This document shows, in pieces, positions 14,525 through 28,507 of a stretch of 29,504 nt of DNA. Numbering within the stretch: position 1 is the stretch's first letter; each line of letters starts with the position of its first letter. The notes beneath the pieces were generated by a model. It ran no database searches. It saw only the letters and a program-made list of their open reading frames with translations, and was not told the origin of the DNA. The stretch is from a virus, in the IMG/VR virus record IMGVR_UViG_3300010297_000055, positions 1-29,504 of that record; one strand, written 5' to 3'. Made by a program: the position numbers and the translations under genes.

Positions 14525-15472
14525 ATGGCATTTTACACAAAACCAGTAAGTCCAACTAAAGGGCAAGATAATCAAGTCACTTTAGATAAGTCTCAACTTG
14601 TTGCAGATTCTATTGTATCTGCTGACTCTTATTTTAGTGATTCTAGTAATTGGAAATATGTAGTAGTTAGTTACCAATCAACTGAAGGTTCTCAGTTAGA
14701 AAAGGTATCATTTAATGTAGTAGGCCCGAGCACAACTGTTAATTCTTCTTTTAAAGTATCAGATAAAGCTAGAGACACTTTTGAAGTACAATCTGTTACT
14801 ATATATGACTTTGATGGAGGTTATCTTAAGTTAAGTAGAGATCAATTAGTTGTTGCTGATTTTGACATCGCATTTGGAATAACTTCTTCTATTGCATTTG
14901 ATCCTATAAATACAGAATCTAATGTAACACTTTCAAATAATAATAGAACAGCTACTTTAAGTACAACTAACGGAGGTATTGCAAAGTCAGAAGTATGGAC
15001 TACCGTAAAAGATGTTACAGGTCCGAGCTACATTGAATATACTGTTGAAGATGTTTCAAGTCCTTTCTTTTTAGGTTTAGTAGCTAGTAACGCTGCATTT
15101 GATGGTGCTGATTTAACATCTTTAGATAGATTGACTCCTAATGGGGGTTTAAGAGTAGCTATAAGTATAAATTCAGATGGAACCGTTTATGTAGGTGGTT
15201 CAGGTATTGGATATGGTTTTATATCTTCTTTAAATATAGGAGATATCGTAACACTTGCTTATGATGGTCCTGATGCTTATGTTGCGGTAAACGGTGTTTG
15301 GGTAGATGGATTTTTGCCTGAATCTACAAATGGAGTAAATATAGGTATAGGAAGTTTAATAAACGCAGGTATAGAATTTGAACAAAATGGTAATGGTGTA
15401 GTAGGAACTTCAGTTTCTATTAATCAAACTCCTAGTATTGTATTACCTAGTTACACTTATATAGGATCATAA
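14525..15472 (+). CDS. Fibre paralogue 1: shared anchor plus SPRY-like module (315 aa)
   Basis: First of three adjacent paralogues that share about 117 N-terminal residues (MAFYTKP..PTKGQDN...LDKSQL, SDSSNWKYVVV, KARDTFEVQSVTIYDFDGGY). This domain presumably docks each protein on the virion. The C-terminal module here (about 124-315) has the SPRY/concanavalin layout: SNNNRTATLSTTNGG, PSYIEYTVEDVSSPFFLGLV, RVAISINSDGTVYVGG and DIVTLAYDGPDAYVAVNGVW. SPRY folds in phage fibres usually bind surface ligands. AGGAG precedes the ATG. Bases 14765-14815 are identical to 15719-15769 in paralogue 2. Confidence 0.75.
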   Translation: MAFYTKPVSPTKGQDNQVTLDKSQLVADSIVSADSYFSDSSNWKYVVVSYQSTEGSQLEKVSFNVVGPSTTVNSSFKVSDKARDTFEVQSVTIYDFDGGYLKLSRDQLVVADFDIAFGITSSIAFDPINTESNVTLSNNNRTATLSTTNGGIAKSEVWTTVKDVTGPSYIEYTVEDVSSPFFLGLVASNAAFDGADLTSLDRLTPNGGLRVAISINSDGTVYVGGSGIGYGFISSLNIGDIVTLAYDGPDAYVAVNGVWVDGFLPESTNGVNIGIGSLINAGIEFEQNGNGVVGTSVSINQTPSIVLPSYTYIGS

Positions 15473-15484
15473 GGAGATAAATAA

Positions 15485-16957
15485 ATGGCATTTTATACAA
15501 AACCAAGTTCACCAACTAAAGGGCAAGATAATTTAGCAACTTTAGATAAATCTCAACTACTATTAGTTACTAAAGTTGCCAATGATGCATACTTTAGTGA
15601 TGGTTCTAATTGGAAATATGTAGTAGTTAAATACAAATCAGATGTAGGGAATCAAATACAAACTTTAATATTTGATGGTAAAGTAGCAAATCCTACAGCA
15701 TCTTTTAATCCTACAGAAAAAGCTAGAGACACTTTTGAAGTACAATCTGTTACTATATATGACTTTGATAGTGGTAAGTTATCTTTATTAAGAGATGAAC
15801 TAGTAGTAGGTGATTTTGATGTAGATTTTAGTGGTGGTAGTGGTGGAGTTTCATATGACGTTGCTGCTTTAAATACAACTTTTGGTTCGACATTTAATTC
15901 AACTACAACACCAACTAGAGGGAACATGATTTCTTTTCTTAGCGATGGTTCTGTTATTATTGGATATAATGGATTCGGTTCTAATTCAATAAGAAAATTT
16001 AATCCAGATGGAAGTCTTGATGCTACATTTGCTTCTAATTTTGTAGATAGTGGTTCTCCATCAGTTGTTTTTGTTGATAGTAATGATAATATTTACTATT
16101 CAGTTCAAAATACAAATTTTAAAAAAATGGATAGTGATGGAAATGTTATATCTTCATTTGAAACAAACTATGGTACATATACTGGTATTATTAATAAAAT
16201 GGTAGAAATGCCTGATGGTAGTATAGTTCTTATTGGTGATTTATCTTTTGGATATTTAGAAAGAATTAACCCTGATGGAACTACATTTACTGGAAATTCT
16301 TTTAATACTAATGTTAGTGGGAACTTTGGAGATAATAGAATTTATAATGGTGGATTATTAAGTGATAATACCTTGGTTCTAGTGTCAGGGTTTACTTATG
16401 ATGATGGTGTTAATTCTTTTTCAACACAGCTAGTTGTTTTAAATGATGATGGTACTCTTAATCTAGCTAAGACAAATTTATATACAAATAATAACACTCA
16501 AGGTTTTGATTCAGATACAATTAAGTTGAGAATCGTGAATGATAATTTATATGGGATTGGTGGATCTCAAGGTCTTAGCGGCAACCGAAGTTTTGGCGTT
16601 ATACTTTCAGATGGAAATATAGATACTACCTTTCAAAATAATGTAATAGCTATTGAGTCTTTTTCTACTGATGTGTTAAAGGATTTTATTTTTGCTGATA
16701 ATGGAAGGATTATTGCTATTGGTTCTTTTCAAAATCTTGGAGGAAATAATGATAGAGATTTCTTTATAGCTTTAAATTCAGATGGAACACTAGACAGTGA
16801 CTTTACAGTTAATAATCTTGATTCTCTAAATTTTACTTTTACATATTTTGGGAATGGTGCTATTAATGGTGAGTTTAACTCTAATACTTTCTTTATAAAT
16901 TATGAAGGTGAAATTGATAATACTTATCCATTTTTTATAGCAGTATCTAATACATAA
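15485..16957 (+). CDS. Fibre paralogue 2: shared anchor plus delta-60-like beta-propeller (490 aa)
   Basis: The N-terminal 117 residues match paralogue 1 (MAFYTKPSSPTKGQDN..., KARDTFEVQSVTIYDFDSGK). The remainder (about 125-490) contains repeats of the delta-60 type: 'NPDGSLDATF', 'MPDGSIVLIGD..YLERINPDGT', 'LNDDGTLN', 'LSDGNIDTTF', 'NGRIIAIGSF' and 'ALNSDGTLDSDF'. These are blades of a beta-propeller known from bacterial surface proteins. Propellers commonly bind glycans, so this is a probable receptor-binding module. It is preceded by AAGGAG. The 51-bp identity with paralogue 1 points to recent duplication or gene conversion of the anchor. Confidence 0.75.
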   Translation: MAFYTKPSSPTKGQDNLATLDKSQLLLVTKVANDAYFSDGSNWKYVVVKYKSDVGNQIQTLIFDGKVANPTASFNPTEKARDTFEVQSVTIYDFDSGKLSLLRDELVVGDFDVDFSGGSGGVSYDVAALNTTFGSTFNSTTTPTRGNMISFLSDGSVIIGYNGFGSNSIRKFNPDGSLDATFASNFVDSGSPSVVFVDSNDNIYYSVQNTNFKKMDSDGNVISSFETNYGTYTGIINKMVEMPDGSIVLIGDLSFGYLERINPDGTTFTGNSFNTNVSGNFGDNRIYNGGLLSDNTLVLVSGFTYDDGVNSFSTQLVVLNDDGTLNLAKTNLYTNNNTQGFDSDTIKLRIVNDNLYGIGGSQGLSGNRSFGVILSDGNIDTTFQNNVIAIESFSTDVLKDFIFADNGRIIAIGSFQNLGGNNDRDFFIALNSDGTLDSDFTVNNLDSLNFTFTYFGNGAINGEFNSNTFFINYEGEIDNTYPFFIAVSNT

Positions 16958-16968
16958 AAGGAATATAA

Positions 16969-18795
16969 TTGGCATTTTATATAAAACCAACAAATTTACA
17001 GAAAGGTCAAGATAATATAGCGAGTTTAGATAAATCTCAACTATTGTTAGAGTCAAAAGTATCTAATGACTCTTACTACAGCGACTCTTCTAATTGGAAC
17101 TACGTTGTGGTAACTTATAAATCTGTTGGTGGTAATCAATTATCAAACGTGATATTTGATGCAAGTTTAGAAAATCCTACAGCTTCTTTTTTTATAACAG
17201 AAAAAGCTAGAGATGTATGGCAAGTAAAAAGTGTTAGAATAGATGATTTTGATGGAGGTTACTTAAGTTTCGATAGAAATGAACTAACTGTATCAGACTT
17301 TGATCTTAGTTTTTTACCTGCCGAACCTACTCAATTAGTAATTACACAACAGTTTACAAGTAGTTTAGCAGGAGATGTTATATCTCCTTCTTTAACAGTT
17401 GAGTTAAGAGATATCGACAATAACCTAGTAACAACAGCTACTAATGAAGTTACACTAAGTCTTGAAACTGATCCTTCAAGCAGTACAGCATCTGTGTCTG
17501 GAACTTTAGTTAAGAACGCAGTAAACGGTGTTGTAGTATTTGACGATATATCTATTGATAAAGCTTTTGATGGTTATGTGTTTAGAGTCGATTCAACAGC
17601 TTTGACAGGAGCTATTGCGACTTCTATTGACATAAGTGCTAATGTTGCTAGTCAACTTAATTACGTGGTACAACCTCCTTCGGCATTAAACGAAGAATTA
17701 GTAATTAGTCCTTCTATTCAAGTAGAAATTGTAGACTCTTTTGGAAACAGAACTGCTGATACTAGTGAAATTACTTTATCTATAAATAATGATCCTAGTG
17801 GTCAGGGTGTTCTATACGGAACTTTGGTTAAGAATGCTGTAAATGGTTTAGTTATATTCGAAGATATAATCATAGATATTGAAGGAAGTGGTGCTACAGT
17901 TAGTGGTTTTAATTTAAACGCAACTTCAACAGGATTAACTAATGCAGTTTCATCTAGTTTTGATGTATATAGATTAAGTCTAATACTTAGTAATCCTACA
18001 ACTGCAACTGCAGGAGAGATAATAACTCCTCCTATAACTGCTCAAGTTTTTAACTCTAATTTAGAAAATGTAACTGATTCAAGTACTACAGTACTTTTAC
18101 AAATAGAAGCTTCTTCAGATCCAAGTGGTGGTAGTGCGACTTTATCTGGTACGACTACAAAAAATGCGGTAAGCGGTCTTGCTACCTTTGATAACTTATC
18201 AATAGATCAAGCTTTTTATGGGTATAAGATTCAAGCTTTTAGATTAACTCCTAATGGATTTGTGTTGTCTGCATTATCTAGTTCTATAAATGTGGAAAGT
18301 GCTATTGTTCCATTAGTTGATTTTACTAGAGATTTTTCTAATCCTAACTCTTTACAGTCAAATGAGACTTTAAATATAGCACAAGGGACAGCAGGATCAT
18401 TATCATATGGTATTAATCAAATAGAATATTCATTGATTGGAGACAACGGTTTTAATTCTATTGTACAATACTCTAGAGAATTTACGGATGATAACCTAAC
18501 ATTAGAAGAAAGTGTAACTTATAATTTAGAAATAGATATAAACAGTATATCATTAATAAACTCGGATGCTAACGACAAAATTGTAATAGTCACAAGTGGT
18601 CCGGGCGGAAATATTATCGATGTTCCATATTCTAGTCTATCTAATGGTACTAATTTTATAAATGGACTTGTAGCAGGTGCTATTGGTATTCCTAGTGAGA
18701 ATGCTATAATACTTCAATTTTCACCACAATCTTCTCAAATTGGAAAAGATATATCCTTTAATATTTCAAGAATTAGAATAACAAAGGTAGTATGA
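16969..18795 (+). CDS. Fibre paralogue 3: shared anchor plus Ig-like repeats (608 aa)
   Basis: The start is TTG at 16969, exactly where paralogues 1 and 2 have ATG (TTG-GCA-TTT-TAT), with AAGGA upstream. The anchor (about 1-117) is related but more divergent (KARDVWQVKSVRIDDFDGGY). Three tandem Ig-like repeats of about 100 residues follow. Each has a 'QL.Y.V.QP/ITQQ' opening, a 'VELRD..NN' or 'VEIVDSFGN' strand, and 'GTLVKNAVNG.V.F.DI.ID'. A C-terminal beta domain follows from about residue 455 (LVDFTRDFSNPNSLQ). Ig-like stalks extend adhesins away from the particle. The rare start codon may lower its expression relative to its sisters. Confidence 0.75.
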   Translation: MAFYIKPTNLQKGQDNIASLDKSQLLLESKVSNDSYYSDSSNWNYVVVTYKSVGGNQLSNVIFDASLENPTASFFITEKARDVWQVKSVRIDDFDGGYLSFDRNELTVSDFDLSFLPAEPTQLVITQQFTSSLAGDVISPSLTVELRDIDNNLVTTATNEVTLSLETDPSSSTASVSGTLVKNAVNGVVVFDDISIDKAFDGYVFRVDSTALTGAIATSIDISANVASQLNYVVQPPSALNEELVISPSIQVEIVDSFGNRTADTSEITLSINNDPSGQGVLYGTLVKNAVNGLVIFEDIIIDIEGSGATVSGFNLNATSTGLTNAVSSSFDVYRLSLILSNPTTATAGEIITPPITAQVFNSNLENVTDSSTTVLLQIEASSDPSGGSATLSGTTTKNAVSGLATFDNLSIDQAFYGYKIQAFRLTPNGFVLSALSSSINVESAIVPLVDFTRDFSNPNSLQSNETLNIAQGTAGSLSYGINQIEYSLIGDNGFNSIVQYSREFTDDNLTLEESVTYNLEIDINSISLINSDANDKIVIVTSGPGGNIIDVPYSSLSNGTNFINGLVAGAIGIPSENAIILQFSPQSSQIGKDISFNISRIRITKVV

Positions 18796-20182: not shown

Positions 20183-20968
20183 ATGGCTTTTACATATAAG
20201 AGATTACATATATCAAGTTCAGGAGGTACAGGAGGAGATTCTGATAAAATTAGAGTATCTGTAAGTGATTTGTTAAACGGTTTCCTAGATGAAAAGTTAG
20301 AAGTTGGTTCTACTAAAATAACTAAACAAATTACAAATCCGGGTGACAACGAAACTCTTCAGTTAGATATAGATGAAACTCAAATTGATCATAACAATAC
20401 TTTAAATTATGATATTGATGAACATAGAAAAATGGATGATAATGTTATATCATTAAGCAGTTTATGGTCATCACAAAAAACTAAAACATATGTAGACGAT
20501 AGCGTACAAGAAAAAGATGAAGCTTCTGAAATATCATATGACCCATCAGTATCTTCTTTAACTTCTACTGACGTACAAAGTGCTATTGATGAGATTGATA
20601 GTATATTAGATAACTCCTCAAGTACGATAGAAACTAGGGTTTGTGATAATACTGCACAAGTATTAGATTTAGTTTTTGAAGATAATTCAATAGCAAATAA
20701 AGTAATAAGTGCTACAAATAATACCGAAGTTAGACCTGTTATGGGTATTATAATAGAAAAAATAACAGCTACTTCTTGTAAAGTTTTACTTTTAGGAACT
20801 GTATCTGGTTTTTCAGGTTTAACTAAAGGTAGAAAAGTTTTTCTAGGGACAGATGGATCTGTAACAAGTACTGTAGTAACTACAGGGTATTTACAATGTT
20901 TAGGTACTGCTAAAGAAGCTGATACTATAATATTTAACCCAAATTTTACAAGAGTTAAAAGGAATTAA
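20183..20968 (+). CDS. Tail fibre protein (261 aa)
   Basis: AAGGA precedes ATG 20183. The N-terminus carries a Gly/Ser turn (SSSGGTGGDSDK). The shaft contains ISYDPSVSSLTSTDVQSAIDEID, the same VQxAIDE-type repeat seen in the 11842 protein. The C-terminal module (ITATSCKVLLLGTVSGFSGL, GRKVFLGTDGSVTSTV, TTGYLQCLGTAKEADTIIFNP) is a beta domain common at fibre ends ('.. GYLQ.LG.A.....I..NP'). It is probably a trimeric side fibre. Confidence 0.7.
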   Translation: MAFTYKRLHISSSGGTGGDSDKIRVSVSDLLNGFLDEKLEVGSTKITKQITNPGDNETLQLDIDETQIDHNNTLNYDIDEHRKMDDNVISLSSLWSSQKTKTYVDDSVQEKDEASEISYDPSVSSLTSTDVQSAIDEIDSILDNSSSTIETRVCDNTAQVLDLVFEDNSIANKVISATNNTEVRPVMGIIIEKITATSCKVLLLGTVSGFSGLTKGRKVFLGTDGSVTSTVVTTGYLQCLGTAKEADTIIFNPNFTRVKRN

Positions 20969-20970
20969 TT

Positions 20971-21315
20971 ATGACTAAGAAAAAACAAGAAAAGAAAGAA
21001 GAACAAAAAGAAAAAAAGTTAACAAGGGCGGAGCACTTGGAGATGGAATTAAACCATGAACAAATGTTAAACTTAGAGCTTATGAAAAAACTAGAATTAG
21101 AAAGAAGACAATCCTACTTACTTCAAAGAAAAGTTCAAGAATTAGAAGCTAAATCAAAAATAGACTTAATTAATTCAAAATTAACAACTATAGATAAAAA
21201 GATAGAAAAATCTAAAGAAGAAGTAAATGATTTTAATAAAAAAATAATGGAAAAATATAAAATAGAAGGAAGTTTCGGTATTAATCCTGATACCGGAGAA
21301 ATTTTGGAGGAATAA
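20971..21315 (+). CDS. Coiled-coil protein containing an internal promoter (114 aa)
   Basis: A very charged N-terminus (MTKKKQEKKEEQKEKK) is followed by a long coiled coil (LELMKKLELERRQSYLLQRK, then EELNSKL-type heptads). It ends in SFGINPDTGEILEE, a tail I know from small coiled-coil proteins of other phages, with no defined role. The codons for KLTTID contain the promoter motif at 21179-21193, so this stretch serves two functions. It is probably a trimeric or dimeric virion accessory. Confidence 0.65.
   Translation: MTKKKQEKKEEQKEKKLTRAEHLEMELNHEQMLNLELMKKLELERRQSYLLQRKVQELEAKSKIDLINSKLTTIDKKIEKSKEEVNDFNKKIMEKYKIEGSFGINPDTGEILEE
21179..21193 (+). promoter_or_regulatory. Phage RNA polymerase-type promoter, copy 5 (intragenic)
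   Basis: AATTAACAACTATAG inside the coiled-coil gene, identical to copy 7 over all 15 bases. Predicted start G21193, 126 bases before the next ATG. It would give the 560-residue fibre its own transcript. Confidence 0.6.
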
Positions 21316-21318
21316 AAT

Positions 21319-23001
21319 ATGGCTATTAGAAAAGCAATCTTTGTAGATGCAAACGGAGACTACGAAGAATCAACCGGAATGTACGAAACATCGGATTTCG
21401 TAAGTACGTCTGCAGGTGTCGCAGACGCAGATAAACCAATTAAGTTAGATGCCAGTGGTCTTATTGATAATTCAATGATCGATGGAGCTTCTTTAAGTTC
21501 TGAAATTGATCATGGAAGTGTTGCAGGTCTTTTAGATGATGATCATACTCAATATCTAGCTCTAGATTCAAATCTTGGGAGTAGAGGCGGTGTTCAAACT
21601 ATTACTGGTGATCTTAGGGTTCAAGATCCTGCTACAGCAACTTCAATTGCAAACAAGCAATATGTTGACGCAGTTGCAGAAGGTCTAGCACCAAAACAAG
21701 CTGTTAGAGTTGCTACTACTGCAGCTCAAACTCTTTCTACTGACTTTGAAGATGGTGATACTATTGACGGAATTGTACTAGCTACTGGTGATAGAGTGTT
21801 AATTAAAGATCAGGCTGCTCCTGCTGAAAACGGTATTTATATCGTTCAGGCTACTGGTGCTCCAGTAAGGTCTACTGACATGGATTCTGATTCACCTATT
21901 AATGAAATTAATGGTGCTTACGTTCCAGTTCAAGCAGGTGTTGAAAATGAAGGTAAGTTTTTCGTACAAACTCAAGTACTAGGTCCGGGAGATTTAGATG
22001 TTCAACCTATTAACTTTACTTTCTTTAACGCTGTTGCTTCAGGAGTTTCTGGTGGTGATGGTATTACTTTTGTTTCAGGTGTAGTTTCTGTAGATTTACA
22101 AACAGGTGGAGGTCTTAAAATTGACGCTGCTCAGTTAGCAGTTGAACCTGCTGATATTATCGGTATTGGTTTAATTGAGTCACCAGATGACGCAATTGCT
22201 ATTGACTTTGCAGACCCTAGTGTTTTAGCAGATTTAGATGGTACTAATGCTAACAAGACTATCAAAGCATCTGATTTATATGCTTCAGCTAGTCCAACAG
22301 GTGGTGCTAATTTAATTGGCGTTGAAGACGCTTCTGCTTATTATGCAGGTTCTCATTTAGAAGATATTCTAGATGAGCTTGAGGCACAGATTGGTGGTTT
22401 AACTTCTAGTACATTTGCTTTTACTGAAGACAATGTTCTTGCTGATAATGATGCTATTTACTCTGCATTAGACAAATTAGATCTAAAGTTTGGTGACTTG
22501 GCATCTACTGCCGCTTCTGAAGGTGCGTCTTTAGTTGGTATTGAAGATTTGGGTGGTAATTATACAGCTACTACAGTTGAAGGTGCTTTAAGTGAAGTTG
22601 CAGGTAGAGTTTCTACTAACGAGTCAGACATTGTAACTTTATTTAACTCTTTAGATAGAGATGAAGCTACTGCAGGTGAAGCTATTTCTGCAGGAGATTT
22701 ATTATACTTTTCTGCTAATGACACAGTCTCTATTTATAGTGATATATCTGTTGCTCGAAGAGCAGTAGGTGTAGCATTAAGTAGTGCTTCTGCTTCTGCT
22801 ACGGTACAATACGCTAGATGGGATGAAGTAGTATCTGGTGCATTAACTGCTGCTACTGCAGGAGAAAGGATTTATTGGGACGGTACTGATTTAACAACTA
22901 CTATTCCAAGTACGTCTGGTCAATATGTATGGCAAGTTGGTGTTGCAAAAAATGCTACTGACATGTTAGCTACGGTTGAATTTATTAAGAAAAACTCTTA
23001 A
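21319..23001 (+). CDS. Major fibre-type virion protein (560 aa)
   Basis: A strong GGAGG site and an upstream promoter serve this gene. The N-terminus is MAIRKAIFVDANGDYEEST, followed by a shaft with GLLDDDHTQYLALDSN, TGDLRVQDPATATSIANKQYVDAVAEG and beta-helix-like repeats. Three copies of a 'LIGVEDAS..Y.....LEDILDEL' type repeat occur in the second half. The C-terminal domain has 'AISAGDLLYFSANDTVSIYS' and 'YVWQVGVAKNATDMLATVEF'. Codon use is closer to the capsid gene than to other fibres (CTT, GCT, ACT), suggesting high copy number in the virion. The 'DDHTQYL' and 'ANKQYVD' elements are typical of phage tail fibres. Confidence 0.75.
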   Translation: MAIRKAIFVDANGDYEESTGMYETSDFVSTSAGVADADKPIKLDASGLIDNSMIDGASLSSEIDHGSVAGLLDDDHTQYLALDSNLGSRGGVQTITGDLRVQDPATATSIANKQYVDAVAEGLAPKQAVRVATTAAQTLSTDFEDGDTIDGIVLATGDRVLIKDQAAPAENGIYIVQATGAPVRSTDMDSDSPINEINGAYVPVQAGVENEGKFFVQTQVLGPGDLDVQPINFTFFNAVASGVSGGDGITFVSGVVSVDLQTGGGLKIDAAQLAVEPADIIGIGLIESPDDAIAIDFADPSVLADLDGTNANKTIKASDLYASASPTGGANLIGVEDASAYYAGSHLEDILDELEAQIGGLTSSTFAFTEDNVLADNDAIYSALDKLDLKFGDLASTAASEGASLVGIEDLGGNYTATTVEGALSEVAGRVSTNESDIVTLFNSLDRDEATAGEAISAGDLLYFSANDTVSIYSDISVARRAVGVALSSASASATVQYARWDEVVSGALTAATAGERIYWDGTDLTTTIPSTSGQYVWQVGVAKNATDMLATVEFIKKNS

Positions 23002-23014
23002 TAATTAGTAAAAA

Positions 23015-23036
23015 AAGTAGAACGAAAGCCCTACTT
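23015..23036 (+). other. Weak terminator-like hairpin
   Basis: AAGTAG (23015-23020) pairs with CTACTT (23031-23036) around a ten-base loop, followed by CTTGTTT. It lies in the short gap after the 560-residue fibre gene. The stem is short and the U-tract broken, so read-through is expected; it may only reduce downstream expression. Confidence 0.35.
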
Positions 23037-23055
23037 CTTGTTTAAAAGGATAAAA

Positions 23056-23592
23056 ATGGTTGATAAAGTAAGACCCTTAAAAATAGAAAATTCAGTAGAT
23101 GGTACTCAAGATGACTTTGTTCAAACAGAGACTGATCCTGCTGAAGATTATATTGCAGCTAAGGGAATGGCATTTGAGAATAACGATTCACAAAGAGTAT
23201 TTGGAGACTCTGGTACTATTAAGTTTGAAGATCAGGATGTAAATAATAACTCAACAATATTTAGTTTATTTGATTTAAGAAATGCATTGACCAATTTTTT
23301 TAGTTCAGTTGGTATAGCTGCTTCTAATGTAAGAGATGCGATAGTTGAAGTAAAAGCAGAAAGAAAATCAGGTGTCGTAGAAAGCACCTCTTTTACAGGT
23401 AATCCAAAAACCTATGATGTGATTTTTTCTACGCCACATAGTTCAGTTAATTATAAGATAAATATAAATGGAGTCGATGGCAGGGCTTGGTCTTATAGTA
23501 ATAAAACTGTGAATGGTTTTACTATAGATACAAATGCTGATAAAGAGTTAGATGGAGAGGTCAGTTGGTCAACCAAACTAGTAGGTGAATAA
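23056..23592 (+). CDS. Fibre protein with WSY/TNA-type C-terminal domain (178 aa)
   Basis: I start at ATG 23056 because AAAAGGA lies five bases upstream; the frame could extend to TTG 23038, but that would overlap the hairpin and lack a site. The mid-region FFSSVGIAASNVRDAIVEV carries the same VxDAI-type repeat as other fibres. The C-terminus (FSTPHSSVNYKININGVDGR, WSYSNKTVNGFTIDTNADKEL, GEVSWSTKLVGE) is a compact beta domain I recognise from phage fibre tips, similar in layout to H-type-lectin-like ends. It overlaps the next gene (TAATG). Confidence 0.7.
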   Translation: MVDKVRPLKIENSVDGTQDDFVQTETDPAEDYIAAKGMAFENNDSQRVFGDSGTIKFEDQDVNNNSTIFSLFDLRNALTNFFSSVGIAASNVRDAIVEVKAERKSGVVESTSFTGNPKTYDVIFSTPHSSVNYKININGVDGRAWSYSNKTVNGFTIDTNADKELDGEVSWSTKLVGE

Positions 23593-26500
23593 TGAGTTAT
23601 TTTATAAATGATTTAAAAATAGAGAATGTAATAACGATTAGAGATTTTGATATAATAGAATTGTCTCAAGATCCCACGTTGTCCCCAGGTGTTGCATCAC
23701 CTATAGGAAGTTTAGCTGTAGTTCAAGATGAAGTTAACGAAAAAAGTGCTTTGTATCAAAAAACAGGGCCACTTGACACTGATTGGACTTTAATACTAGA
23801 TAAAGCTACAGCCGATCAGCTTTACTTGCAAGTTACAGCACTTTCTTCTAATATATCTTTATATGCTACTACTGCATCTAGTGACGTTGTAGGATATAAT
23901 AAACTAGTAACTAGTTTAGAAGACCCTGATTATGATGCTGTTGCTGTTGATGTTTCTACAGGTGTTATATCCTCTGATGGTCAGCTAGTAGGACAGCTAA
24001 TATCTGAGCCAGGTTTAATTATAGGAAACCCAGGTATTATAAATATAAATACTATAGGAAATATTAGAAAAGTAAGCGGAAGTAAGTTTGCTGAATTTTA
24101 CTACGAAGTTTATAAGAGAAATTCAGGCGGTGTAGAAACTCTTATTGCCGATTCTGCTCCTACTGTCCCTGTTGAATCTACAAGCTATGAGCAATTTTTC
24201 GAGTTTGCTCTTTTAAATAATGGTATTTTTACAGAAACAGATAGATTAGTTATTAAATACTATGCTAATCTATCAGATACTGGTAACGATCCTGTGTATG
24301 AGTTTCAGTTTGGAGGTAGTGACCCTGTAAGAACGCTTCTACCTGTGCCTGTGTCAGCGATCCCTTCACAAACTGCTGAAGAAACTGATGTTGATACTTC
24401 TAATTTTATAAAAAAAGGACTTCCTAGAAAATTTAGAGATGAAGATAACAATGTTCAAAAATGTTTAGAAAAAATTGATTATTCTTGTTCTTCCTCACCT
24501 TTAGTTTTTTTTGCAACGACAGCTACTGCTGGTTTAAATCCAGAAACTATTCCAGATGGAGCAGATGGTTATTGGGGGAATTTATTAGTAGAAGATGCTT
24601 CTAGCCCCTATTTTTCTAAAACACCTATTGATGTTAATTTACCACTAGATACAAATGCTGGTGTAGTTTTTCCTAACGGTTACTTAAGTACCTTAAGGCC
24701 TATTTTAGAAGGAGATATATTTGGTCTTACAGGATCTCTACAATGTAAAATAAAAAAGGTTTCAGGTGATAAGAATGCAAAATTTTGGATTCAAGTTTAT
24801 AGAGGCAATGTTAGTCCAAGTGCTGGTGGAGCAATGTTCGCTCAATCTGATTATACGGAAATAATTACAAGTACTGAGTATCAAGATCTAATTATACCAT
24901 TTGAGTTGTCTTTAACTTATGGTTATCAAATGACCGCTGACAATAATCTATTTTTTCAAATTTGGTATGAGCAGTTTGGAACAGGTACAAATGCTGTTTA
25001 TGCTGTTGAGTATGGTGGGTTAGATAACCCTTTCAGGTTTCATCTAGATGTACCTTCTAGTTTAATTAGAACTGGTACAGCGGAAAAAACGCCTGTTAAT
25101 TTTTATCAGTTTAATAGATTTTTAACTTCTTCAGAAACTGATGTTCAAAAAGCTTTAAAACGAATTGATGATCTTGCCGTTATTAATGTATCTGATTTAG
25201 ACGATGTTCAGATAGTAAATCCTTTAAATAATCAAGTATTGATTTATGACGATGTAGGCTCTGTATGGAGAAACCAGACACAAACTCATGAAATAGCTGA
25301 TGTAAATGGGTTACAAGCAGCTCTTAATAATAAAATTGAAACTTCTGAAAAAGGAGCAGCTAATGGAGTAGCTCCTTTAAATGCTTCATCTAAAATAGAT
25401 TCGACTTATCTTCCTAGTTATGTAGATGACGTTTTAGAATTTGCTGATTTAGCGAGCTTTCCAGCTACAGGTGAGACAGGTAAGATATATGTTGCATTAG
25501 ATACAAATAAAACCTATAGATGGTCTGGTACCGCTTATGTAGAGCTAACAGACGATACAGCGGTATGGGGAAGTGTGTCTGGCACATTATCTAATCAAAC
25601 AGATTTACAAAACGCTTTAAATGATAAAATAGACGTAACTGAAAAAGGTGCTACAAATGGAGTTGCTCCTTTATCAGCAGGTAAAATTGATAATATTTAT
25701 TTTGATGAAGACAATATTTTAACTTTTCCTACTTTCTCTGCCTTTCCGTCAAATCCAGTAACAAATACTATTTATATTGACGCTTTTGCAGAAAAAGCTT
25801 ACAGGTGGAATGGAGTCTCCTATTTATTGTTAAGCTCTGTTAATTGGGGAGATATAACTGGCACATTATCTAATCAAACAGACTTACAAAACGCTTTAAA
25901 TGCTAAAGAAGACTCTATAGATTCTAGTACTTTTAATAGGTTATTAAGCACAACTGATGACACAGCTCAAAAAGCATTGGATAAAATTGATGATATAGCC
26001 GTTTCTAAAGATGGCGAAAGTGCAATGAATGGGCCTTTACAATGGTCACAAGCACTTAGTAATGGTATGAATACTGAAGTTTTTTCATCCAATATAGATG
26101 CTGATGATGTAACACTGACTTCTCAGTTTGATAGCAACCCTGTTAAATCCGTACAAATAACTTCTAGATATATATCACATACCGATGGTGCCAATCCTGC
26201 TGTTCCTACTGCGGATTCTCATCTTGTAAATAGAAAATATGTAGACGATATTGCTGTAACTAAAGAAAATACTTCTAATAAGAATTCTGCGAATGGATAT
26301 GCTGGATTAGATGCCAACTCTCAAATATTGCCTTCAGCACTTCCTCATAAAGTTTTAGCTGGGCCAGGTGTTATACTTCAGTTTAGTGGAACAACTTTTG
26401 AACAAAGTAATTACTCACCTGGAGTTGGTGTAAACAGTAATCCTGCTGATTTTGGCTTCTTTCCTGTTCAAAATGCAAGTTTTGTGTTTAATCCGTTTGC

Positions 26501-26792
26501 TGTGCTAGGCTCAAATAAAAACTATAGAATTTATGCTATTAGAAGACAGGACGGTGCCGCATTTGATGGCGTTCATTGCATGATTAGAAAAGTAGAAAAT
26601 GGAATTGAATCGGGAATTCCTGGGCTATTAGATTGGGGAGCTGGCGTAAATGATTATGCTTCTGCTACATCTGATGTTTTAAATAGTGGAACTAGTGATT
26701 CTTTTATATGGTTTAGGTGTTATTTTGCTGCATATACTGGAGCTAATCAAGCAACTTTACAAGACTTAACTTTATGGATAATAGCAGAATAA
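23592..26792 (+). CDS. Large tail fibre protein (1066 aa)
   Basis: Largest gene in the window. Two related beta domains lie in the N-terminal half, each ending in a similar strand set ('YYEVYKRNSGG...', about 165-260, and 'FWIQVYRGNVS...', about 390-490). Each is linked by the repeat 'VQK.L..ID', seen as NNVQKCLEKID, TDVQKALKRIDDLAV and TAQKALDKIDDIAV. The middle has fibre modules: LDDVQIVNPLNNQVLIYDD, EKGAANGVAPLNASSKIDS-type shafts, IYVALDTNKTYRW and two GTLSNQTDLQNALN units. Those two units come from a 43-bp DNA repeat (25581-25623 and 25860-25902, one mismatch). The C-terminus ends in a beta tip (YRIYAIRRQDGAAFDG, WFRCYFAAYTGANQ). Probably the main long side fibre. Confidence 0.8.
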   Translation: MSYFINDLKIENVITIRDFDIIELSQDPTLSPGVASPIGSLAVVQDEVNEKSALYQKTGPLDTDWTLILDKATADQLYLQVTALSSNISLYATTASSDVVGYNKLVTSLEDPDYDAVAVDVSTGVISSDGQLVGQLISEPGLIIGNPGIININTIGNIRKVSGSKFAEFYYEVYKRNSGGVETLIADSAPTVPVESTSYEQFFEFALLNNGIFTETDRLVIKYYANLSDTGNDPVYEFQFGGSDPVRTLLPVPVSAIPSQTAEETDVDTSNFIKKGLPRKFRDEDNNVQKCLEKIDYSCSSSPLVFFATTATAGLNPETIPDGADGYWGNLLVEDASSPYFSKTPIDVNLPLDTNAGVVFPNGYLSTLRPILEGDIFGLTGSLQCKIKKVSGDKNAKFWIQVYRGNVSPSAGGAMFAQSDYTEIITSTEYQDLIIPFELSLTYGYQMTADNNLFFQIWYEQFGTGTNAVYAVEYGGLDNPFRFHLDVPSSLIRTGTAEKTPVNFYQFNRFLTSSETDVQKALKRIDDLAVINVSDLDDVQIVNPLNNQVLIYDDVGSVWRNQTQTHEIADVNGLQAALNNKIETSEKGAANGVAPLNASSKIDSTYLPSYVDDVLEFADLASFPATGETGKIYVALDTNKTYRWSGTAYVELTDDTAVWGSVSGTLSNQTDLQNALNDKIDVTEKGATNGVAPLSAGKIDNIYFDEDNILTFPTFSAFPSNPVTNTIYIDAFAEKAYRWNGVSYLLLSSVNWGDITGTLSNQTDLQNALNAKEDSIDSSTFNRLLSTTDDTAQKALDKIDDIAVSKDGESAMNGPLQWSQALSNGMNTEVFSSNIDADDVTLTSQFDSNPVKSVQITSRYISHTDGANPAVPTADSHLVNRKYVDDIAVTKENTSNKNSANGYAGLDANSQILPSALPHKVLAGPGVILQFSGTTFEQSNYSPGVGVNSNPADFGFFPVQNASFVFNPFAVLGSNKNYRIYAIRRQDGAAFDGVHCMIRKVENGIESGIPGLLDWGAGVNDYASATSDVLNSGTSDSFIWFRCYFAAYTGANQATLQDLTLWIIAE

Positions 26793-26873: not shown

Positions 26874-26888
26874 ATTCAACAACTATAG
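26874..26888 (+). promoter_or_regulatory. Phage RNA polymerase-type promoter, copy 6
   Basis: ATTCAACAACTATAG, the most divergent copy (C for the usual T or A before AACAACTATAG), with predicted start G26888. GTAT at +1 pairs with ATAC (26899-26902). It precedes a 17-codon mini-frame. Confidence 0.7.
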
Positions 26889-26922: not shown

Positions 26923-26976
26923 ATGGACAAAAAGAAAGCTAAACTAAGCCAATTAAAAGATCTTAGTTTGAAATAG
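26923..26976 (+). pseudogene. 17-codon remnant matching the start of the gene at 28166
   Basis: The frame reads MDKKKAKLSQLKDLS then LK and a stop. The first 15 residues are identical to those encoded at 28166, while the DNA differs at four of 45 bases, all synonymous. It has a promoter and an AGAG-like site, so it may still be translated as a short peptide. Most likely it is the surviving 5' end of a second copy whose body was replaced. Confidence 0.6.
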
Positions 26977-27149
26977 TAAACCTAGAAGGTATACAAAAGT
27001 CTGCAGATTGGGAAATGAGTATAGAAAGAATAGGCGACGATATTGGAATAGTTTTGGATATTAACGCATCTGGACAAGTTACATATACAAGTACAAATGA
27101 AGGCACATCTGCTACTGCTAAGTATAGAGCAGATACTACGAGTGTCTAG
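26967..27149 (+). pseudogene. Remnant of a fibre C-terminal domain
   Basis: In another frame, beginning within the mini-gene above, 60 codons without their own start read FEIVNLEGIQKSADWEMSIE, then GIVLDINASGQVTY and a TAG. The order and residues match the C-terminal domain of the 11362 protein (EGI..., GVILDIDNSGQF, ...KFRA / KYRA). It lacks a start codon and ribosome site, so it is a broken gene end. AGGAGG for the next gene overlaps its stop. Confidence 0.6.
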
Positions 27150-27160
27150 GAGGCTCATAA

Positions 27161-27475
27161 ATGGATTTTAAGAATATTTCTGACCCAGATCAAAGAGAAG
27201 CATTAAATGCTATTAAAAGAGCAGCAGAACGCAAACTAGAGCCTGTGAGGGCTAAATTAGAGAAAAAGGCTCAAGATAGAGTAATTGCTAGTGCAGAAGA
27301 TATTGGAATTGGTAGAGATACTCTAGAAAAGATTGCAGGTGCTGCTATGGCTGCAGATGCTCTAAATAGAGGTGAATTTCAAGGTGGAGTTGATATTAAC
27401 GATAACCTTCGATTAGAAGGTAAAATGTCTCCTAGAGAAAAGGCAATTAAGTTATTGTATAATAAGAGTTTTTAG
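27161..27475 (+). CDS. Small helical virion-type protein (104 aa)
   Basis: AGGAGG seven bases upstream makes this the strongest ribosome site in the region. The N-terminal half is a charged helix (DQREALNAIKRAAERKLEPV, then EKKAQDRVIASAED). A small hydrophobic Ala patch follows (IAGAAMAADALN). The C-terminus, VDINDNLRLEGKMSPREKAI ending LLYNKSF, resembles the short beta-strand plus 'SP.....' plus aromatic end found in small virion proteins of other phages. Function unknown. It would be transcribed from the promoter at 26874 with the remnants as leader. Confidence 0.65.
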   Translation: MDFKNISDPDQREALNAIKRAAERKLEPVRAKLEKKAQDRVIASAEDIGIGRDTLEKIAGAAMAADALNRGEFQGGVDINDNLRLEGKMSPREKAIKLLYNKSF

Positions 27476-27494: not shown

Positions 27495-27523
27495 TTGACA
27501 AGGTTTTTTTATACTCCTATAAT
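27495..27523 (+). promoter_or_regulatory. Perfect sigma70 promoter before hydrolase gene
   Basis: TTGACA (27495-27500), a 17-base spacer containing a T-run, and TATAAT (27518-27523): full consensus at both boxes and ideal spacing. Predicted start about 27530, giving a leader of about 30 bases. It is the only rightward host-type promoter I find. Confidence 0.85.
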
Positions 27524-27558: not shown

Positions 27559-28098
27559 ATGAAAAAAATTAAAATACATTTTAGCAGAAGTACTAAAAAA
27601 TTTAATTATTTTTCTAAATTACTACAGTGGTATGAAGGTATTCCAATATCTCATGTATTAGTTGAATTTGATACGCCACATCTTGGTCAAAATTTTGTAT
27701 ATCACTCTGTAGTAGGAAATGGAGTAAGTTTTATAACATTATCTAGATTTGAATCTATCAATGAAATAATGGAAACTTACATTGTAGAATTAGAGGATAG
27801 TAAATATAATAATATAAGAAACGCTCTACTAAACGAATGTGGAGAAAGTTATGGTTTTTTACAAAATATTGGTATATTTTTAGTAGATATAGCTAGAAAA
27901 GCAGGTATCAAGGCTGATAATCCATTTAAAGATGGTCAGAATTGTTCAGAATTAATATATCGTCACCTAATTTCAAATATTTATAAAAAACATAGCATAA
28001 AGCCTGATTTAGTAAAACCTTCTCAAATTAGGGATATTTTAGTAAAATCTGGTAATACTCCTATAATGAGTAAAATTAACAACTATAGTACTATATAA
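27559..28098 (+). CDS. Permuted papain-like (YiiX/NlpC-P60 type) hydrolase
   Basis: 179 residues. The order His then Cys marks a circularly permuted NlpC/P60-like fold. ISHVLVEF supplies H32 in the strand before the active site and GQNCSELIYR supplies C129 at a helix start. YHSVVGNGVSF (about 48-58) is the strand between. Members of this family cleave or bind amide, thioester or lipid substrates; some act on peptidoglycan. There is no signal peptide. ATG 27559 has no Shine-Dalgarno site, unlike nearly all neighbours. It has its own perfect sigma70 promoter, and its last codons contain the phage promoter of the next gene. A lysis, cell-envelope or host-takeover role is possible. Confidence 0.65.
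   Translation: MKKIKIHFSRSTKKFNYFSKLLQWYEGIPISHVLVEFDTPHLGQNFVYHSVVGNGVSFITLSRFESINEIMETYIVELEDSKYNNIRNALLNECGESYGFLQNIGIFLVDIARKAGIKADNPFKDGQNCSELIYRHLISNIYKKHSIKPDLVKPSQIRDILVKSGNTPIMSKINNYSTI
28074..28088 (+). promoter_or_regulatory. Phage RNA polymerase-type promoter, copy 7
   Basis: AATTAACAACTATAG inside the last codons (INNYS) of the hydrolase gene. From G28088, GTACTAT pairs with ATAGTAT (28098-28104, one G-U) around a three-base loop, the tightest +1 hairpin of the set. Confidence 0.7.
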
Positions 28099-28120: not shown

Positions 28121-28507
28121 ATGGATTGCGGATGTAATAAATGTGATTTATGTAAGGAGAAATCAATGGATAAGAAAAAAGCTAAACTAAGTCAATTAAA
28201 AGATCTTAGTAAAGAAATGAGAAAAATGATGGGTGACAGTTTTGGTGACTCAATGCAAAAGGTTACAGTTGCCTCTGATAGCCCAGAAGGATTACAAAAA
28301 GGTCTTTCTAAAGCTCAGGAAATTATGAAGAAAAAAGGTATCCTGAAAGATGAGTCTGATGATATGAAAGAAGATATTGATGAGGATGAAGAAGAAGAAT
28401 TAGAAGATGAAATGGAAGAAATGGCAGATGATGTTGATGAAATGTCTCCAGAAGAAATCAAAGCTAAGATAGAGGAATTAAAAGCTAAATTAGAAGAAAT
28501 GGAGTAA
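28121..28507 (+). CDS. Acidic helical virion-type protein with two nested starts
   Basis: Two in-frame ATGs each have a ribosome site: TAGGA before 28121 and the stronger AAGGAG before 28166. The long form adds 15 residues with four Cys (MDCGCNKCDLCKEKS). The short form starts MDKKKAKLSQLKDLSKEMRK. The body has GDSMQKVTVASDSPEGLQKG and a very acidic stretch (DEDEEEELEDEMEEMADDVD), then a coiled coil (EEIKAKIEELKAKLEEME). It lies just before the neck-type gene and has its own promoter. A structural or assembly role is likely, but unproven. The start of the short form recurs as a remnant at 26923. Confidence 0.7.
   Translation: MDCGCNKCDLCKEKSMDKKKAKLSQLKDLSKEMRKMMGDSFGDSMQKVTVASDSPEGLQKGLSKAQEIMKKKGILKDESDDMKEDIDEDEEEELEDEMEEMADDVDEMSPEEIKAKIEELKAKLEEME

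Follow-up and report, generated by a model that had tools for sequence, protein, structure and literature searches.

The window, by which we mean the entire 29.5-kb stretch of the virus record (29,504 nucleotides), covers the part of a tailed-phage genome that has to do with packaging, the head and the tail fibres, and at positions 26923-27149 it brings together pieces of two different genes. All window features located below between 20183 and 28507 lie on the + strand. The first piece begins an ORF of 17 codons (26923-26976), reading MDKKKAKLSQLKDLSLK followed by a stop. Its first 15 codons (26923..26967), identified by ORF reading and by comparison with the second copy, repeat the first 15 codons of the 28166 gene further downstream. 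Namely, the peptide is identical, and the four base differences (GAC/GAT, AAA/AAG, AAG/AAA and AGC/AGT) are all synonymous, just as the initial annotation had it. Only about 17% of all possible single-base changes in this 15-codon stretch are synonymous, or 38% of the transitions, and under a random-change expectation four synonymous differences out of four would arise with p of about 0.001-0.02, which suggests that the 15-codon copy was under selection until recently. The second piece (26967..27149) consists of the last 60 codons and the stop of a fibre gene. It starts abruptly at 26967, in a frame other than that of the 15 codons, and the two pieces abut with no filler between them. Merely 0.56% of shuffles of this fragment keep a 60-codon frame open, and as the frame is open still, the event that produced the arrangement was probably recent.

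Which gene supplied the second piece? Aligned over its full length, the 60-codon stretch corresponds to the final 62 residues of the fibre protein of a close relative, G002 (38.7%, E 1.8e-9), both ending in TTSV, and it also matches, again from end to end, the fibre ends of two more distant relatives, G003 and G004 (E 7.9e-8 and 2.5e-9, respectively). The fragment had earlier been likened to the C-terminal domain of the 11362 protein, and the likeness is real (41% over 51 aa, E 1.8e-4, a score reached by 0 of 2000 shuffles). As a parent, however, the 11362 gene was rejected, its match being weaker and shorter than that to the fibre ends (1.8e-4 vs 1.8e-9). Since the fibre ends of all three relatives give the stronger match, and a full-length one, the fragment is, judging from these alignments, the end of the fibre gene standing before the 104-aa gene in both close relatives, and the 11362 protein merely has a related domain in common with it, as do other proteins here.

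These two close relatives, G001 (L004) and G002 (L005/L006), have one continuous, uncut fibre gene between a 117-aa gene and the 104-aa gene, with a gap of 11-18 bp before the latter. In G003 and G004 (L100/L101), fibre genes with the same terminal domain stand about 0.9 kb upstream of the 28166 homologue, shortly before a homologue of the 325-aa gene. The short frame plus fragment was looked for in all four of these relatives, and none carries both. Likewise, the joint itself was found in one contig only and nowhere else. Named phages gave no DNA match for the region and only distant matches for the portal, a host search via genome contigs returned none, and Pfam and PHROGs offered no convincing name for the 104-aa, 28166, 325-aa and 11362 proteins. 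One of the two close relatives (G001 or G002) has an exact 123-bp repeat at both contig ends, as in a circularly complete assembly. On the reverse strand of L108 (G003), a 240-aa ORF resembling, by eye, a GIY-YIG endonuclease lies between the 28166 and 325-aa homologues, and an ORF similar to it stands after the capsid gene.

In the window, this fibre gene is split, its N-terminus at 20183, right behind the 117-aa gene, where the relatives have it too, and its last 60 codons at 26967, so that the two ends lie 6 kb apart; the conserved middle is not in the window. Residues 1-114 of the 5' part (20183..20968) are the relatives' fibre N-terminus (50% to the G002 fibre, 44% to that of G001), and residues ~149-259 form a foreign C-terminal domain (43% to L019 over residues 154-259, 33% to L015 over residues 149-251). 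On the left, the switch point is probably within a linker that has a repeated tail motif (residues ~106-143 of this ORF), and it can be placed no more exactly than that. Four ORFs without a homologue in G001 or G002 follow. They are a 114-aa ORF (20971..21315), 36-38% identical to ORFs just before the homologue of the next gene in L015-L018; a 560-aa tail-fibre-like protein (21319..23001) with up to 57% identity in L015-L018 and PHROG matches to tail fibre and head decoration; a 184-aa ORF (23038..23592); and, as the cassette's last gene, a 1066-aa tail-fibre-like protein (23592..26792; PHROG minor tail / PTR repeats) for which the viral collection contained no relative. In L015-L016, the first two cassette ORFs and the new C-terminal domain are arranged as in the window, and L019 has this arrangement for the domain and the 560-aa homologue. 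The terminase and capsid of the window were not detected in the contigs sharing cassette ORFs, which, these contigs being fragments, speaks only weakly for unrelatedness. At its right end, the block terminates in the sixth copy of a promoter motif and the 15 codons of the second 28166 homologue.

Elsewhere in the fibre region, three repeated fibre genes starting MAFYTKP or MAFYIKP occupy 14525-18795, before a 94-aa gene (18797). Their homologues in G001 and G002 stand just before the promoter and the 28166 gene, which means that this block has moved.

The late-promoter motif, TTAACAACTATAG, occurs in 7 copies in the window with at most one mismatch, versus 0.24 expected, and is found at matching places in G001 and G002, all on one strand. 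Copy 6 (TCAACAACTATAG, one mismatch) is at 26876..26888, and the motif search places that of the intact 28166 gene at 28076..28088; an exact copy also lies at 21181-21193, inside the 114-aa cassette gene. The intact gene (28121..28507) probably starts at 28121, its N-terminal MDCGCNKCDLCKEKS being kept in G002 as MYCGCNKCDLCKENK. This Cys-rich stretch (28121-28165) is missing in G001, which has a CEACEGEGCEAC stretch towards the C-terminus. In G002 (L005, 9378-9488), a 36-codon ORF beginning MAFYTKPVSPTKGQDNVITL, like a fibre gene cut to its first codons, directly precedes the promoter of the 28166 homologue.

Comparison of the two promoter-linked starts bears on the origin of the 15 codons. 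The leader of the window's 28166 gene shows 1 difference in 42 from that of G002, whereas the copy 6 leader shows several differences and indels and is without the Cys-rich N-terminal stretch. What is more, over the 15 codons copy 6 differs from the window's 28166 gene by 4 nt, which is as much as the latter differs from G002. Given these equal distances and the far more divergent leader, the simplest reading is that copy 6 and its 15 codons would come from a third, related phage lineage and would not be a fresh copy of the window's 28166 gene. In this respect, the comparison supports the initial annotation, which took the locus for a chimeric scar left by recombination, with the 5' end of one gene set on the 3' end of another and the 28166-like start drawn, as one of two options, from a related phage; the identity of both pieces is shown. 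Promoter and start, in their two copies, form a pair of direct repeats (87% alike over 62 nt) at a distance of 1243 bp, which as such could loop out the intervening segment.

The joint itself restricts how the two pieces could have met. In the fibre frame, a TAG stands at 26964-26966, and in the 28166 frame another stands at 26974-26976. Because of these flanking stops, the longest stretch that two intact parents could share is 26965..26975, that is, at most 11 nt. All three known homologues have AAA GAA (Lys-Glu) after codon 15, and had the donor kept it as well, the figure would shrink to about 3 nt. So short an overlap makes a poor fit both for homologous recombination of the ordinary kind and for a k-mer misassembly. 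The limit applies to presumed intact parents, and longer homology at the joint could have been removed by a later deletion. The exchange had originally been ascribed to recombination between promoter-linked units, and this does not agree with a joint that falls within coding sequence on both sides, roughly 80 nt beyond the promoter, and leaves next to no room for overlap.

To the right of the scar stands the 104-aa gene (27161..27475; 83% to G002, 43% to G001), directly behind the fibre gene in both close relatives. After it comes a 179-aa gene (27559..28098) with its own sigma-70-type promoter at 27495-27523, a 12/12 match to the consensus TTGACA-17-TATAAT, and with homologues in L015-L018. 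Morons are genes with their own promoter inserted between phage genes, and given its perfect promoter and its homologues in other phage contigs, the 179-aa gene looks like one.

Taken together, these observations are best explained, and we consider this quite probable, by an illegitimate, nearly homology-free exchange between two related phages in the course of tail-fibre module swapping. The left parent would have carried the fibre cassette, then a late promoter and then its own 28166 homologue, and the right, resident parent, in this order, the fibre gene, the 104-aa and 179-aa genes, the promoter and the 28166 gene. A single event would have broken off the left parent's 28166 homologue at codon 15 and continued it with the last 60 codons of the right parent's fibre gene. 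It would have left behind a second, truncated 28166 start and a fibre remnant that is dead, and would have put an additional copy of the promoter in front of the 104-aa gene, the last being the single consequence that we infer for the event. The resident order, fibre gene before 104-aa gene, is the one seen in G001 and G002. The donor order, with the 1066-aa gene, promoter and intact 28166 gene, turned up in no contig, whether the 1066-aa gene was used in a protein scan or the 15 codons as a DNA pattern; the identity of the donor and the direction of transfer are proposals. A single exchange event does not account for where the 179-aa gene stands.

Would a duplication within one genome do as well? 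Its own promoter and 28166 start would have been copied before the fibre remnant and would then have drifted, and indeed the 15 residues are exactly those of the window's 28166 gene, with G002 departing from them at two. However, the copy 6 leader differs by bases and indels and the coding part by synonymous changes only, and a dead copy would not have been so spared. A duplication by itself would not bring in the foreign ORFs at 20971-26792 either, and we regard this origin as unlikely. We think it quite improbable, too, that the joint is an artefact of assembly or amplification by which two phage strains of the metagenome were fused, even though it is present in a single contig. Assemblers join on k-mers far longer than 11 nt, at which the stops cap the overlap of intact parents, and the promoter-plus-start copies are only 87% alike over 62 nt. 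A chimeric molecule could still have come from whole-genome amplification.

One could also argue that the locus is a working element, either a leader peptide or a frameshift-coupled small gene before the 104-aa gene, since the ORF at 26923 has a promoter and a weak ribosome site (AAAGAG) in front of it and the frame of the fragment is still open. Yet the in-frame ATG at 27015 is without a good ribosome site, the arrangement occurs in no relative, and the two pieces belong to different genes in every one of them, so that a function of this kind seems very improbable. A programmed -1 frameshift gene was rejected, as the frame change has no slippery heptamer and the relatives have no fused homologue, and so was a conserved functional small gene, the combination being absent in G001-G004. 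Most likely, the 17-codon frame and the fragment are non-functional debris of the proposed exchange.

Opinions differ on whether illegitimate or relaxed homologous recombination is the main source of phage mosaicism (PMC3233612, PMC3945230). The scar resembles the mosaic module boundaries of tailed phages in its abrupt change of ancestry, apparently without shared sequence, in its place in the tail-fibre region and in the gene fragments left behind; such boundaries usually fall at gene ends, however, and here the cut runs inside both parent genes (PMC3233612). With relaxed homologous recombination it has in common an exchange among diverged relatives, but that process needs stretches of diverged homology, and intact parents of the scar could share at most 11 nt (PMC3945230). 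The scar itself is not a moron, for all the likeness of the 179-aa gene beside it.

For annotators, the locus is a warning that the small frames at 26923 and 27015 should not be called genes. We would give only a low probability to a wider reading, in which a swap hotspot lies before the 28166 gene in a little-known phage group and has left several footprints, the joint among them, with fibre cassettes that end in a late promoter exchanged as units and re-wiring the transcription of what lies behind them. The swapping of tail-fibre genes by mosaic recombination is well known, and the scar is an unusually legible single case of this process. Namely, most mosaic boundaries have been tidied by selection, whereas here intact relatives of both ends survive and stops in both frames limit the overlap of the intact parents, and a probable illegitimate event can therefore be read directly.
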